Shown one piece after another: positions 40,220-46,796 of a DNA stretch of 64,000 nt (its first letter is position 1; every line of letters starts with the position of its first letter). The translations under genes were made by a program, and so were the position numbers. This DNA is from Aporhodopirellula aestuarii. Lineage in GTDB: Bacteria; Planctomycetota; Planctomycetia; Pirellulales; Pirellulaceae. The stretch is taken from assembly GCF_023701485.1 (NCBI RefSeq), contig NZ_JAMQBK010000031.1, positions 62,001 through 126,000 on the forward strand, in the 5' to 3' direction. A model generated the notes under the pieces. That model was not told where the DNA came from, searched no databases, and saw nothing but the letters and a program-made list of their open reading frames with translations.

Positions 40220-41812
40220 CTAAATCGCTTCGCTGCTTTCGAAAACCATCAACTCAGCTCCATCGAGGAAACTGACGAGCGATTTTGCTCGATAGGGCTG
40301 TTGCAGTTTGCGGACCGCCTTGCTCTCGATTTGACGCACCCGTTCGCGGGTCACTTGGAAAATGCGACCGACTTCCTCGAGCGTGTAGGTGTAACCATCG
40401 GCAAGGCCGTAACGCAGGCGAAGGATTTCTCGTTCACGGTAGTTCAGCGTTTCCATCGCCAAATCGATCTGGCGTTTGAGTGCTTCGCGGTTGGTTTCCA
40501 CCAACGGATCCTGGTCCCGGTGGTCTTGCAAAAACTCGCCAAAGGCGCTGTCCTCGTGATCGCCAACGGGTTGGTCGAGCGACAGCGGCTGACGGCTCAT
40601 TTTCAAAATCACGCGGGTGTCATCGAGCGACAATCCGCTGCGGGCACAAACCTCTTCCGGGGTGGGCTCGCGTCCATGTTCTTGAACGAGGTCTCGCGTG
40701 ATTTGGCGGATCTTGTTCATGGTGTCGATCATGTGGACCGGCACACGGATTGTTCGGCTCTGATCTGCGATCGCACGGGTGATCGCTTGGCGAATCCACC
40801 ACGTCGCATAGGTGCTGAATTTGTATCCGCGGGCATGTTCGAATTTATCCACCGCCCGCATCAAACCCGTGTTGCCTTCTTGGATCAGGTCCAGGAATGA
40901 GAGTCCACGGTTGCGGTATTTTTTGGCGATCGAGACAACGAGGCGAAGGTTACCCGCCGAAAGCACGCGTTTGGCGGCATCGTAGTCGTCCCGCAGCGTA
41001 TCGCAGCGTTCGACGCGGCGTTGCAGCGTGCGGGGCGTCTCGTAGGTCAACCGCATCAGGCAACGCAGTTCGCTACGCAAATCATCGGCCGACGGCATTC
41101 CCGCGAGTGCGAGCCGATCAGGTGACGAAAGGATCTCGCGGATCTCAATCATGCGAAGGGCGCTGCGACGAAGTTTTTCAAAGATGGGCTGAAGCTTGTT
41201 GGTCCGCAGATTCATCTCTTCAACCAACCGCACCGCTTTGTTGCGGCGGATGACGAGGTTTCGCCATGCGGCACGCCGGCGGCGCATCGGCATCGATTTG
41301 TTGATCGCGACGAGAAAATCACCGCGGTTTTGAGCGAGCAGATGGCCGAGTGTTCGCGTGTTCGGGACGATCCGTTTCATGATCGCCTTCTTCTCAGACG
41401 CGTTCGTCACGCTGACTTCGATCGTGCGATCCAAACGCAACTGTTTGTCGCGGACCTGTTGCAGCAATTTGAGGGCGGCCTGCAGCATGAAATCGGTTGC
41501 CATCATGCAGTGCCGGTAGCGGTCACGCGTGGCTTCAATTTGCACCGCGGCGGAGACTTCTTGGTCGCGGGTGAGCAAGGGGATTTGTCCCATTTGCATC
41601 AAATACATGCGAACCGGATCTTCGGTCGGATCGTTGGGCATTTCCTCACGGCGGGCGAGCAAGTCGTCTTCGGAGAGGACGGCAAGGTCGGAATCATCAG
41701 AGATCGCGTCTGAGAACTCTTGTCCCATCGTGCGGGAACGTCGGGAAATCGAATCCTCGGCGTCAAACGCGTCGTCCTGTAAACTGCGACTGCTGAATTT
41801 TTTGCCCATCAT
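40220..41812 (-). CDS. rpoD: Primary sigma factor (RpoD/SigA)
   Basis: A 530-residue sigma-70. Region 1.2 is [16 protein letters not shown], followed by a long non-conserved helical part, region 2 ([50 protein letters not shown]), region 3 and region 4 ([20 protein letters not shown]). Region 1.1 is missing or very short, as the protein has only about 55 acidic residues before region 1.2. The start is fixed by GAGGAAAG five bases before the ATG at 41812; the frame stays open to 41908. It directs RNA polymerase to housekeeping promoters. It is divergent from glnE, 620 bases away. Confidence 0.93.
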
Positions 41813-41830
41813 GCTTTCCTCGGTTCCCGG
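41813..41830 (-). promoter_or_regulatory. Strong ribosome-binding site of rpoD
   Basis: On the minus strand GAGGAAAG stands five bases before ATGATG at 41812, one of few strong Shine-Dalgarno sequences in this window. It decides the start codon against the longer open frame. The second ATG (41809) would be three bases later. Confidence 0.6.
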
Positions 41831-42432
41831 ATGATTCTCAGAGCGGTGCGAGGGAACGAACCAAGCACGGTCAGTGCCATCAAGCGATTGGGGCAAAGCG
41901 TAAATCATTACAAGTTGTTATCACGAAAGAGGTTAGGCAAGAAAACTTGCCCGCAGGGCGGAGAAGCATGCGGCGAGACATGTGGCGTCCATTCATCATC
42001 ATGCTGCCTCTACGCAACATCTGATGAATTCTCCCGACTCGTCTCAACGTCCATCATTTGATGCTCATGACGTTCCCCCCGTCCTCGCATGCCAAAAAGT
42101 AGGTCAGGTTTCGTGGTGCATCTGAAAAAGCGAGGGTTTCATTGTGAAAATCGACTCGGCTACACCAATCTCTTCTGCCCGTTTAAACTCCGATTCGTGG
42201 TGGTTTGTACTCTGGTGATTCGCGATTCTCGAATCGATTTGGAGCTGCGTTTCCCGTCATTTGGGTGTATTGACGGATTTCCGCCGTTGACCCGTTAGAC
42301 TCCTCCTGAGCGTGGAAAGTTCCCGATAGCGATGACCGGACGAATTTGCTTTCAAATCTCTGTCAGAGAGAGCCTGCGGCGGCACGCGACGGGGCGTATC
42401 CTGATGAAGCCGCTTGCCCTCAGGGACCGACA
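41831..42432. other. Divergent intergenic region between rpoD and glnE
   Basis: About 600 bases, less GC-rich than the genes. Small open frames (41831-42061 and 42089-42298) have no recognisable protein features. It should hold the promoters of both genes, but I found no convincing -10/-35 pair; TTGACG at about 42272 lacks a good partner. No RNA gene or riboswitch was recognised. Confidence 0.5.
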
Positions 42433-45400
42433 ATGGTGAACTCTGTGAATCCTTGGAACGACTATCACCCGCTCGACGATTCGATATTTGTCGATGCACC
42501 GGAGTCGCTCCGCGCGTTGAAGGAAATCGCCGCCAGCGGGGCCTCGCAGGACCTGCTCGCCAATCTGTGGCAGGCCCTCCACGACCATCTCGGTTCGATC
42601 GATTCGCCCGATGATGGGGTCCGATTACTGTCCCGATTTATCGGCGTGTCCCGGAGCCCGACTTCATTGTTGGCCCTTTTTGAGCGTGACCCGCAAGCAC
42701 TGCCGTCGCTGCTCCAAGTGCTTTCGACGAGCAACGCGGTCGCCGAACTTCTTATTGGTGACCCCGAGAGCTTCGATCTCCTCCGCGCCAGTGACGGACG
42801 CCCGGCTTCTCGGGAGTTGCTCAGTGATGAGTTGGCCAGCGAATTACGGAATATCGCCTCGATCCCGCGTGCGGCGATCGCAATTCGGCGTTACGCGGGC
42901 CGCGAAATGTTGCGGATCGCCTACGGTGAGTTTGTCCGCGGGTTGCCACCCGATCGTGCGGCAAGGCAAATCAGCCACCTGACCGATGCGGTGCTCTCGA
43001 CGGCGCTCGATTTTACGATCGAGCAAACAGCGTCGCGGCTGAAGTACCCGCAGCGGATTGACGGCTCCGAACCGAAATACACGATCATCGCGTTGGGCAA
43101 TTACGGCGGCGAAGAGATCGGCTACGATTCCCCGCTCGATCTACTGTTGCTATGCGATCAAATCGACCGCAAGAACGAAAGCCATCTCAAATTCAACCGG
43201 CAAGTCGCCGCCGGGCTGATCAAATTACTCGGGTCCAATCGCGGTCCCGTCGTATCGATCAACCTGCGTTTTGTCCCTCAACCTGGCGAAGATGTTACGG
43301 GACACGATACCCAACGACTAAGCGACCTCACTCGTAGTGGTGACACATCGTCGCGTTTAATTGATTTTCACGATGCGGTTGATGCGGCCGCGTATTTTGA
43401 GCGAGAGAATCAAACATTTGATCGGCTCGCATTCGTCAAGGCGCGCGTGGCGGCGGGGGACCGCGATCTCGGCGAAAAGTTCCTGCAACGGATTGAACCT
43501 TGGGTCTACCACCGCTTGCTCAGCAGGAGCGAGATTGCCGATATCCGCGTCTTACGCCGCAAGCTCGAAAAACGTGCCCTGTCTGCCGATGCCGAGAACG
43601 GCACGCCGATCGCCGACTGCCCTGGTGGACGGCGAGACATCGAGTTGACAATCCAGTTCCTGCAGCTTTTGCACGGCGGAGAACTACCGGAGGTTCGCGT
43701 CACCAGCACGCTCGACGCGATCGCGGCGCTGAATCGTCATGGTTGCTTGACTCAGCAAGAAGCCTCGATCCTCTCGGAAAACCACGCTCGATTGTGTCGA
43801 CTCGAGCATCATCTCGCTGTCTTATTCGATCATCGTGTCACGCACTTACCCGATGACGACGCCGTTCGCACGCGGTTGGCGTGGCGGCTCGGCGTGCGGT
43901 TATCGAGTGACTCGGGAACCCGCGGCGGAGCACTGACTCACGGTGACCGCGTACGGTTCGAACAGTTGCTTTCGGAAACATTCGAAGTCAATCGAAAGAT
44001 CATCAATCACTTGATGGTGCAGGATGTTGCGGCCCAGCCGATCGCGTCCTCAGACGCTTCCGTGGAGACAGCCGAGCCCAGCATCGCTGACAATGACGAC
44101 GCCGATGTCGTCGAAATCGAAACCGAATTGATTCTTGACCCCGATCCCGATCTCGATACCTACCGGGAAGTGCTACGAGGGCACGGGCTTAAACAGACTG
44201 ACCGAGCTATCGACAACCTGTCCGCACTGAGCCACGAGACGGTGTCGTTCTTATCGCCCCGTCGATGTCGACACTTTTTTGCGGGAGTGGCTCCCGCGCT
44301 GTTGCGAGAGATCGCCATGACGCCGGCGCCGGATCAGACGTTGGCACGACTCGTTGAAGTGACCGATTCGATCGGTGCCAAGGCGACATTGTGGGAACTG
44401 CTCGGTACGAATCGGGCAACGTTGTCATTGATGATCCGGTTGTGTTCTTTAGCGCCGTATCTGACTGAAATCTTGATCGGCAACCCCGGCATGATCGATG
44501 AACTCGTGGATTCATTGATCATGGATCGATTGCCACGGGCGGAGCGTCTCGATATGCAGACGATTCGGTTGTGCCAGTCGGCCGACGATCTGCAGCCGAT
44601 CCTGCAGACCTTTAAAGCCGGATGTCACCTGATGATCGGTGTTCGCGATTTTCTAGGTAAAGAATCAGTGGACGCGATCGGGGAGTCGCTCAGTGATACC
44701 GCCGATGCTTGCTTGCGCCGGGTGATCGAAAGCGAACACGAGAAGCTGGCCGCGAGATTTGGCGACCCGATTGACAAAAATGGCAAGCCCGTAGAGATGG
44801 TTGCCGTGGCGTTGGGCAAATTCGGCGGACGGGAAACCAACTATCACAGCGACCTCGACCTGACCTTCCTTTACACTGCGGAAGGCGAAACCAAGCGGAG
44901 AGTGGGCGGCCCACGAACAACGCTTTCGAATCGGCAGTTCTTTAACCAGCTCGCGCGGGCTGTGGTTCAGAAAATCGATTCGCAGACCGAGCGGTTGTAC
45001 GAAATTGATTTGCCATTCGCGGGCGGAGCCGATGAGACCGTTCTGACGCATTCGATTGAACAGTTCGCGAAACCGTTTCGGCACGGCGGGGCTCCGTTGT
45101 GGCAGCGGGTGGCATTGTGCCAAGCGAGACCATGCGCGGGCTCGCGCAAAGCGATCGATCTTGCTGAGATGACGATCCGCAAAGCGATTGAGCAAACCCC
45201 GTGGCGAGACAGCCACTTCACTGAAATGAAGGCATTGCGACATCGCAGCGAATCGACCGCCACGCCGGGAAATCTCAAACGCGGGATCGGTGGCACCGTG
45301 GATGTTCAGTGCATCGTCGCAGCGGGCGTGTTGAAATCGTCCCACCCGGATTCGCCTAAGATCGCGACCGGTATCGTGGCGGCGCTCAAGGACCTTGCCG

Positions 45401-45663
45401 AAGCGGGCGTTTACGATCGAGAGGATGCGGACACGCTGATCGAAAACTATCGCTACCTGCGAACGGTCGAAGCAAAGCTGCGGCTCATCGGCACGACTGC
45501 AAGACACGAGTTGCCATTGTCGGCCGACGGTGGTGCGGACACCTTGGCGATGAAGCAATTGGCTGACTTGTTAGAGGCAACGGATCCTAGTGAGATCGTT
45601 GACCGTTGTGACAAAGCTCGTCAGTCCAATCGGAGTCTGTTTGATCGGTTGATGTCACCGTGA
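42433..45663 (+). CDS. glnE: Glutamine synthetase adenylyltransferase with altered adenylyl-removing domain
   Basis: A 1076-residue GlnE, longer than the usual 950. GlnE adds AMP to glutamine synthetase through its C-terminal domain and removes it through its N-terminal domain. The C-terminal nucleotidyltransferase motif is intact: ALGKFGGRETNYHSDLDL, with the Asp pair near residues 807-809. In the N-terminal domain the matching motif reads ALGNYGGEEIGYDSPLDL (from residue 221): the conserved Lys is Asn and the first Asp of SDxDL is Pro234. The start at 42433 (MVNSVNPWNDY) is preferred over 42346. The stop overlaps a GTG start of an ABC ATPase gene. Confidence 0.92.
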   Translation: MVNSVNPWNDYHPLDDSIFVDAPESLRALKEIAASGASQDLLANLWQALHDHLGSIDSPDDGVRLLSRFIGVSRSPTSLLALFERDPQALPSLLQVLSTSNAVAELLIGDPESFDLLRASDGRPASRELLSDELASELRNIASIPRAAIAIRRYAGREMLRIAYGEFVRGLPPDRAARQISHLTDAVLSTALDFTIEQTASRLKYPQRIDGSEPKYTIIALGNYGGEEIGYDSPLDLLLLCDQIDRKNESHLKFNRQVAAGLIKLLGSNRGPVVSINLRFVPQPGEDVTGHDTQRLSDLTRSGDTSSRLIDFHDAVDAAAYFERENQTFDRLAFVKARVAAGDRDLGEKFLQRIEPWVYHRLLSRSEIADIRVLRRKLEKRALSADAENGTPIADCPGGRRDIELTIQFLQLLHGGELPEVRVTSTLDAIAALNRHGCLTQQEASILSENHARLCRLEHHLAVLFDHRVTHLPDDDAVRTRLAWRLGVRLSSDSGTRGGALTHGDRVRFEQLLSETFEVNRKIINHLMVQDVAAQPIASSDASVETAEPSIADNDDADVVEIETELILDPDPDLDTYREVLRGHGLKQTDRAIDNLSALSHETVSFLSPRRCRHFFAGVAPALLREIAMTPAPDQTLARLVEVTDSIGAKATLWELLGTNRATLSLMIRLCSLAPYLTEILIGNPGMIDELVDSLIMDRLPRAERLDMQTIRLCQSADDLQPILQTFKAGCHLMIGVRDFLGKESVDAIGESLSDTADACLRRVIESEHEKLAARFGDPIDKNGKPVEMVAVALGKFGGRETNYHSDLDLTFLYTAEGETKRRVGGPRTTLSNRQFFNQLARAVVQKIDSQTERLYEIDLPFAGGADETVLTHSIEQFAKPFRHGGAPLWQRVALCQARPCAGSRKAIDLAEMTIRKAIEQTPWRDSHFTEMKALRHRSESTATPGNLKRGIGGTVDVQCIVAAGVLKSSHPDSPKIATGIVAALKDLAEAGVYDREDADTLIENYRYLRTVEAKLRLIGTTARHELPLSADGGADTLAMKQLADLLEATDPSEIVDRCDKARQSNRSLFDRLMSP

Positions 45664-46796
45664 CCGATGTCGGCCCGGTACCACCAAACTCGGCGCAACC
45701 AGTCCCTGCGTCGTATTTGACATTGCGGGGGATTCGGAAATCCTTTGGCCGCGAGTGCGTTCTCGATGGATTGAACCTGGATGTCAGCGAGGGCGAGTAC
45801 CTCGTGGTGCTCGGCCCGAGTGGCTGCGGCAAAAGCACGCTGCTGCAGATCATTGCGGGATTGGTTCGTCCCGATTCCGGTGACGTGAAGCTCGCATCGC
45901 GATCGCTCGACCGGGTTTCCCCCAAGGATCGTGACGTCTCGATTTTGTTCCAAGACGATCGTCTGTATCCACACTGGAACCTGCGAAAGAACCTCGAATT
46001 GGCTTGTGACAGGTCACCGGTGAAGAAGCACCAGAGCGGTGATCCGGTATTGGAATTGGCGCAAAGATTGAACATTGGCGGTTTGCTGCAGCGTCGGCCC
46101 GATGAAATCAGTGGTGGGCAGTTGCGGCGGGCGGCGTTGGCGAAGGCGTTGCTGCGACAGCCCGCCGTCTGTCTGCTCGACGAGCCTTTCGCGGCAATCG
46201 ATACGATGATGAGAGAGGACCTGATTTCGCTGCTGGCGGATTTTCCGCGAGAACGGGGTGGTGGGTGTTCTCAGACTTCGGTCGTGCATGTCACGCACGA
46301 TGGCGAAGAGGCGATGCGATTGGCCGATCGGATTGTGGTGCTCGGCGGAGGCCGGGTGTTGCAATCAGGAACGCCCGACGACATCTATCGAAAGCCACAA
46401 TCACTCGATGTCGCCAAAGCCATTGGCACACCACCGGCGAACATGATCGCCGGGAATCAAGTCCGGGCGATGCTAGCAGATCGCTATGATCAGTTAGTTC
46501 AAGCACTCCCGGGTTGCCATGATTCATCGACCTTCATCGTACGTCCCGAACACATACGCCTCGCGCTGCAGACGGACGTTTCTGATCGCGATGGAGACAT
46601 TTGCGACGGTCAATGGCGCTTGGCGGCAACCGTTTTGTCATCTCGCTTTGTCGCCGGCAGATGGCTCGCAAGCATATCCGTTGATGCGGATCGTGAACTC
46701 GTCTTAACGGTCTCGTCCCCGCTCGAGATTGGGCCCGCAGGCCGTCACGTGATCGCGCACGTGTCGTTGGCAGACATCGTCTGCGTGCCCGGTTGA
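45660..46796 (+). CDS. ABC transporter ATP-binding protein (MalK/UgpC type)
   Basis: A 378-residue ABC ATPase of the sugar/polyamine import group: Walker A GPSGCGKSTLLQIIAG, Q-loop LFQDDRLYPHW, signature ISGGQLRRAALAKAL, Walker B VCLLDEPFAAID and switch His in VVHVTHDGEEAM. A C-terminal TOBE-like beta domain of 130 residues (FIVRPEHIRLAL) is typical of MalK/UgpC/PotA subunits. It begins with GTG overlapping the glnE stop (GTGA), so it is translated from the glnE message, but there is no permease or binding-protein gene next to it. The substrate is unknown; it may serve several permeases encoded elsewhere. Confidence 0.85.
   Translation: MTDVGPVPPNSAQPVPASYLTLRGIRKSFGRECVLDGLNLDVSEGEYLVVLGPSGCGKSTLLQIIAGLVRPDSGDVKLASRSLDRVSPKDRDVSILFQDDRLYPHWNLRKNLELACDRSPVKKHQSGDPVLELAQRLNIGGLLQRRPDEISGGQLRRAALAKALLRQPAVCLLDEPFAAIDTMMREDLISLLADFPRERGGGCSQTSVVHVTHDGEEAMRLADRIVVLGGGRVLQSGTPDDIYRKPQSLDVAKAIGTPPANMIAGNQVRAMLADRYDQLVQALPGCHDSSTFIVRPEHIRLALQTDVSDRDGDICDGQWRLAATVLSSRFVAGRWLASISVDADRELVLTVSSPLEIGPAGRHVIAHVSLADIVCVPG

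Follow-up and report, generated by a model that had tools for sequence, protein, structure and literature searches.

Retention of GlnE with a degenerate adenylyl-removing site in planctomycetes that lack its glutamine synthetase substrate

In the genus of Aporhodopirellula aestuarii, sequence comparisons show that every genome encodes the glutamine synthetase GSII and none encodes GSI, that the adenylyl-removing (AR) site of GlnE has been destroyed, and that glnE is kept at full length under strong purifying selection with the metal-binding Asp residues of its adenylylating (AT) site in place. On balance, we lean towards the view that GlnE outlived GSI in this lineage and is kept for a GSI-independent, ATP-dependent role with a pseudo-AR half. 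GlnE, the founding protein AMPylase, is described with a single substrate in a published review (PMC12409994). Our searches of an open-access library turned up no report of GlnE in GSI-less planctomycetes.

Results

GlnE and the glutamine synthetases of its genus

The window, a 64,000-nucleotide stretch of the A. aestuarii genome, carries glnE on the forward strand at 42433..45663 (1076 codons from ATG), within an ORF that is open from a TTG at 42346 and whose Pfam content (42346-45663, +; two PF03710 and one PF08335 domains) identifies it as GlnE. Residues are numbered here from this TTG, and Pro263 is Pro234 when counted from the ATG at 42433. The gene is single-copy in the 9.07 Mb genome; a search there for a second GlnE, which the earlier note had recommended, returned none. 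An AlphaFold model of the protein (65 rows, window and loci; pLDDT 86.9, pTM 0.68) is matched by both halves of E. coli GlnE in VIA (Z 42.4 and 42.1) and Foldseek, with 3k7d matching the AT domain, and predicts that the overall fold of both halves is retained. E. coli GlnE (the GS adenylyltransferase / adenylyl-removing enzyme; PDB 1v4a, 3k7d) shares with the window protein the repeated nucleotidyltransferase and helical architecture and the AT Asp triad, whereas window GlnE lacks the AR catalytic residues, the AT RLRP and the WERQ Glu, and its genome lacks the GSI substrate. Against the NCBIfam bifunctional-GlnE equivalog NF008292, window GlnE scores 347.8 bits, below the cut-off of 487; for two relatives whose sites are intact, the scores are 596.5 and 779.2.

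To our knowledge, GSI is the only substrate of GlnE; we know of no GlnE with another client, nor of GSII or GSIII as GlnE substrates. A PF00120 scan of 40 genomes, the window's own included, detected no GSI in any of the 13 genus members, whereas 24 of the other 27 genomes have a full-length one (404-460 bits); among the remaining three, the GSI of G026 is split over contigs and none was found in G022 or G023. The window belongs to a wider GSI-less clade of eight genera (g1, g12, g29, g44, g52, g53, g61, g70) and 37 genomes, in which the best tblastn match to GSI reached 38.6 bits, versus 758-908 in three controls. The earlier proposal, of an enzyme that may be limited to adenylylating glutamine synthetase, is at odds with the window genome: GSI is missing there, as it is throughout the genus (13 genomes) and in the other clade members, and one-way GSI adenylylation cannot occur without it. 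The proposal may describe sister genera such as those of G013, G014, and G017, where the AR site is dead but the AT triad is intact and GSI still has a Tyr. In Pirellulales with GSI (e.g. G016, G019, G021), GlnE belongs to the same family, has the same length, and is ~40% identical, but unlike in the window its AR and AT motifs are intact, and GSI there carries DKDIYDLPPEE.

Nitrogen regulators are still encoded. GlnD is present in 13/13 genus genomes and PII in 40/40 genomes searched, and a search of the window genome for a PII gene, another suggestion of the earlier note, recovered PII together with GlnD. In G000 and G004, the main PII still has the T-loop Tyr, the uridylylation site.

Degeneration of the adenylyl-removing site

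Asp triads are catalytic in both the AR and AT domains of GlnE. Within the AR nucleotidyltransferase domain (42916..43455, +), the motif that reads GKLGGxELNYSSDIDL in aligned members of the order, the canonical form, is GNYGGEEIGYDSPLDL in the window (43096..43143, +), with Pro at the first metal-binding Asp (Pro263, codon 43132-43134) and Asn at the GKxGG Lys. The translation of this segment confirms these two replacements, which the earlier note had reported, and all 13 genus genomes share the altered site. The strand that should supply the third Asp, canonically YRVDLRLRP, is VSINLRFVPQPG (43258..43284, +) and has no Asp in register; across the genus this column holds Asn or Arg, and its register is uncertain, yet Asp occurs in no register. 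The change at the first Asp is common to the genus, as SPLD in seven genomes and SQLD in six, and because all 13 carry one or the other, chance or sequencing error is ruled out as its origin. None of the 36 GlnE of the wider clade retains the first AR Asp. Together with the missing third Asp and the low NF008292 score, this bears out the inference of a damaged AR site, and we regard its loss of function in window GlnE as well supported.

The N-terminal domain alignment across Pirellulales that had been called for found no Asp in register at the first or third position in the genus, and did find an acid two residues before the first (D261; Glu in the SQLD species) in 13/13 genus genomes. There is a small chance that this displaced carboxylate substitutes for the lost Asp in the genus; most clade members outside the genus have no acid at this position.

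For the AR domain, two unsaturated species pairs of the genus give an omega of 0.046 and 0.030. Alignments and omega together mark it as a pseudoenzyme, a domain that has lost its catalytic residues and is held by purifying selection.

Conservation of the adenylylating site

The AT nucleotidyltransferase domain (44416..45150, +), delimited by Pfam, the 3k7d match, and conservation, was called intact in the earlier note, and this holds only in part. Its motif GKFGGRETNYHSDLD (44815..44859, +) keeps both catalytic Asp, D836 and D838, in SDLDL, and the third Asp is present in YEID (44998..45024, +), giving the window a complete DDD triad. The RLRPxG that should follow is replaced by LPFAGG, and at 45100..45111 (+) WERQ has become WQRV, with Gln in place of Glu920. 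RLRP is lost in 13/13 genus genomes. The GlnE of the sister genus g12 (G023) and of genera g29, g44, g52, g53, g61, and g70 are in the same state as that of the window, with GSI absent, the AR site dead, and the AT motif Asp kept in nearly all, but several of them keep RLRP-like AT motifs. The WERQ Glu is present in 26/26 AT domains read from GSI-bearing genomes versus 0/36 in the clade. Matching Glu-to-Gln and Gln-to-Leu changes prevail in the AR domain (28 and 26 of 36 clade GlnE); because both domains handle the same GS Tyr, this parallel loss may mark residues of GS recognition. The loss of RLRP and the WERQ Glu fits lost GS recognition and also fits lost transfer chemistry.

The two domains differ in what the clade has preserved. 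The first two AT Asp are kept in 35/36 clade GlnE, versus 0/36 for the same two in the AR domain, and the full AT triad is kept in 30/36, with the third Asp changed in five (to Asn in G001) and the first in one. Mean column entropy in the AT domain is 1.12 in the clade versus 1.25 in GSI-bearing relatives; in the AR domain it is 1.72 versus 1.28, and the clade has 6 AR positions that are ≥95% invariant versus 47 in the relatives. By these measures, conservation of the AT domain in the clade matches or exceeds that in GSI-bearing relatives, and conservation of the AR domain falls short of theirs. Since the AR domain, kept without catalysis, has lost its Asp, those of the AT domain are probably in use.

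The main rival to an ATP-dependent role has to be weighed here. Both halves may be pseudoenzymes. GlnE would then bind PII, glutamine, or ATP and act through protein contacts, as a scaffold or sensor without catalysis, and the AT Asp would serve only to hold ATP-Mg or structure. The loss of RLRP and the WERQ Glu would be expected of such a protein, as would the handful of altered first and third AT Asp, and it has a precedent within the same polypeptide in the AR half, a dead domain kept under selection with its fold retained. An AT motif as conserved as in GSI-bearing relatives, next to an AR domain that has lost its first Asp in every clade member, argues the other way, and we consider the scaffold a serious possibility but a distinctly lesser one than the ATP-dependent role.

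Retention and selection after GSI loss

GlnE is encoded in 36/37 clade genomes, as an open frame of ~960-1180 codons (the copy in G007 is interrupted by a contig end); it was not found in G109, a complete genome within the clade. Because GSI is missing throughout the genus, divergence within it post-dates GSI loss. Omega was estimated by Nei-Gojobori, and with several dS saturated, values are reliable only for pairs with dS < ~1. The two unsaturated genus pairs gave 0.060 and 0.055 for GlnE; elsewhere in the clade, omega was 0.054 in g29, 0.069 in g12, 0.062 in g52 (dS 1.8), and 0.044 in g61 (dS 2.9, saturated). Four GSI-bearing pairs gave 0.033, 0.055, 0.056, and 0.044 (the last at dS 2.2). 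These values indicate purifying selection on clade GlnE (0.044-0.069), the dead AR domain included, like that in GSI-bearing relatives (0.033-0.056). GlnD in the same genus pairs has an omega of 0.019 and 0.034, and that of genus GlnE is 1.6 to 3 times higher.

Had GlnE function gone with GSI, leaving an evolutionary relic on its way to loss, neutral drift would bring omega near 1 and introduce stops. The open frames and control-like omega of the clade make this very improbable for the window's lineage. The relic reading finds its evidence in the failure to detect GlnE in G109 and in the GSI-less genomes G050, G057, G084, G092, G118, G133, and G166, in AT sites that are broken too in g11, g54, and g74, and in an omega of 0.13 in g11 and g49, GSI-less lineages outside the clade with a broken AT site. 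That other GSI-less lineages have lost GlnE or broken its AT site as well shows that the protein is dispensable in places.

AR status and GSI status across Pirellulales

We surveyed Pirellulales beyond the clade, reading GlnE in 125 genomes (128 loci) out of 169 classified (of 171 seen); the remaining 44 yielded no GlnE reading, some because none was found, and the sample is non-random, with GSI-less and weak-scoring genomes deliberately included. GSI was canonical in 49 genomes read and changed in the Tyr region in 29, and the AR site was readable in 124/125 genomes. It was intact in 49/49 genomes whose GSI was canonical (35) or unread (14, GSI by score only), and dead in 67/75 that lack GSI or carry one altered in the Tyr region (Fisher p 1.7e-26, not corrected for phylogeny). 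Mapped on an RpoB tree of 60 genomes, GSI shows 13 changes of state and the AR site ~11; among eight supported independent pairs, 6-8 were concordant over 200 pairings (mean 7.6) and none was opposite (median p 0.008).

Eight genomes have GSI absent or changed and an AR site that is not dead. Three of them are assemblies of 89, 91, and 72% completeness (G043, G044, G115); G053 has lost the GSI Tyr with its AR site intact; and for G160 the motif rule was too strict, and the genome was counted as having GSI in the RpoB tree analysis. The other three belong to genus g7 (G018, G098, G128; GSI L066, L245, L246; GlnE L018, L187, L186), in which the GSI Tyr is Phe and GlnE is intact with both Asp triads kept. 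The g7 state is either an early intermediate or a fully equipped GlnE with another client.

Two further observations concern GSI itself. In G079, G085, G108, and G122 (L260, L261, L262, L263), a fast-diverging GSI with 38-54% identity to a family GSI has lost the Tyr and is possibly being repurposed. Genus g66 (G077, G121, G156) retains a diverged GSI that reads SYDL at the Tyr, but no full GlnE was found there.

Among 80 genomes searched for GSII, the AR site had been read in 70; GSII was found in 37/38 of those with a dead site and 11/32 of those with an intact one. Events may plausibly have begun with the arrival of GSII, followed by drift of the GSI Tyr region, death of the AR site, and possibly the disappearance of GSI. 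The same distribution can be read as retargeting of GlnE to GSII (or GSIII), which would preserve the classical circuit in one-way form with another synthetase: nearly every genome with a dead AR site has GSII (37 with, one without), and GSII (closest model GlnII) is present in 13/13 genus genomes. However, GSII persists where GlnE is absent (G050, G092, G109), no obvious new Tyr was seen by eye in GSII of GSI-less genomes (nine GSII, a small sample), and a type III enzyme of ~754 residues was matched in only some genus genomes. We consider retargeting unlikely.

Genomic neighborhood

A sigma-70-type factor gene is divergent from glnE in the window (40220-45663), a pairing shared by many genomes of the GSI-less clade, and an ABC ATPase ORF (45660-46796) begins inside the end of glnE with a 4-base overlap. 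An ABC gene was found downstream of glnE in only 5/13 genus loci (1.5 kb flanks). These neighbors suggest no function, and within 1.5 kb flanks of the loci no neighbor or partner gene points to a GlnE function or client. Directly after glnE in two GSI-bearing genomes, at G016:C18:343316-346718 and G039:C109:7237-10727, comes a small, divergent PII-like gene in convergent orientation.

Discussion

The clade that includes the window has lost GSI yet still selects for GlnE, and GlnE therefore probably does something else, at least there. We infer that acquisition of GSII made GSI dispensable, that the clade ancestor lost GSI and with it GS deadenylylation, and that GlnE either already had a second task or gained one then. 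In the ATP-dependent role that we favor, the AR half would now be a regulatory pseudo-nucleotidyltransferase and the AT half would still bind ATP-Mg, acting through one-way AMP transfer to a non-GSI client or as an ATP-dependent switch. GlnE would perhaps still be steered by PII and GlnD, both of which are present. Several observations count against this reading: the changes in the AT site, the dispensability of GlnE in places, a genus omega above that of GlnD, and a gene neighborhood that offers no hint of a client. More specifically, and more tentatively, we suggest that clade GlnE could be a dedicated one-way AMP transferase, or an ATP-gated regulator, for a non-GSI protein, with its AR half a regulatory pseudo-domain, so that replacement of GSI by GSII would have been followed by a new output for the PII/GlnD nitrogen signal; we put this version at somewhat less than an even chance.

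The repeated losses of GSI and of the AR site amount to a natural experiment, in which the residues that GS modification requires (the AR triad and perhaps also RLRP and WERQ) can be told apart from those on which another function depends. Intermediates are at hand in genomes whose GSI Tyr has become Phe with GlnE intact and in those whose AR site is dead with the AT triad intact. The presence of glnE alone is an unsafe basis for annotating GS adenylylation.
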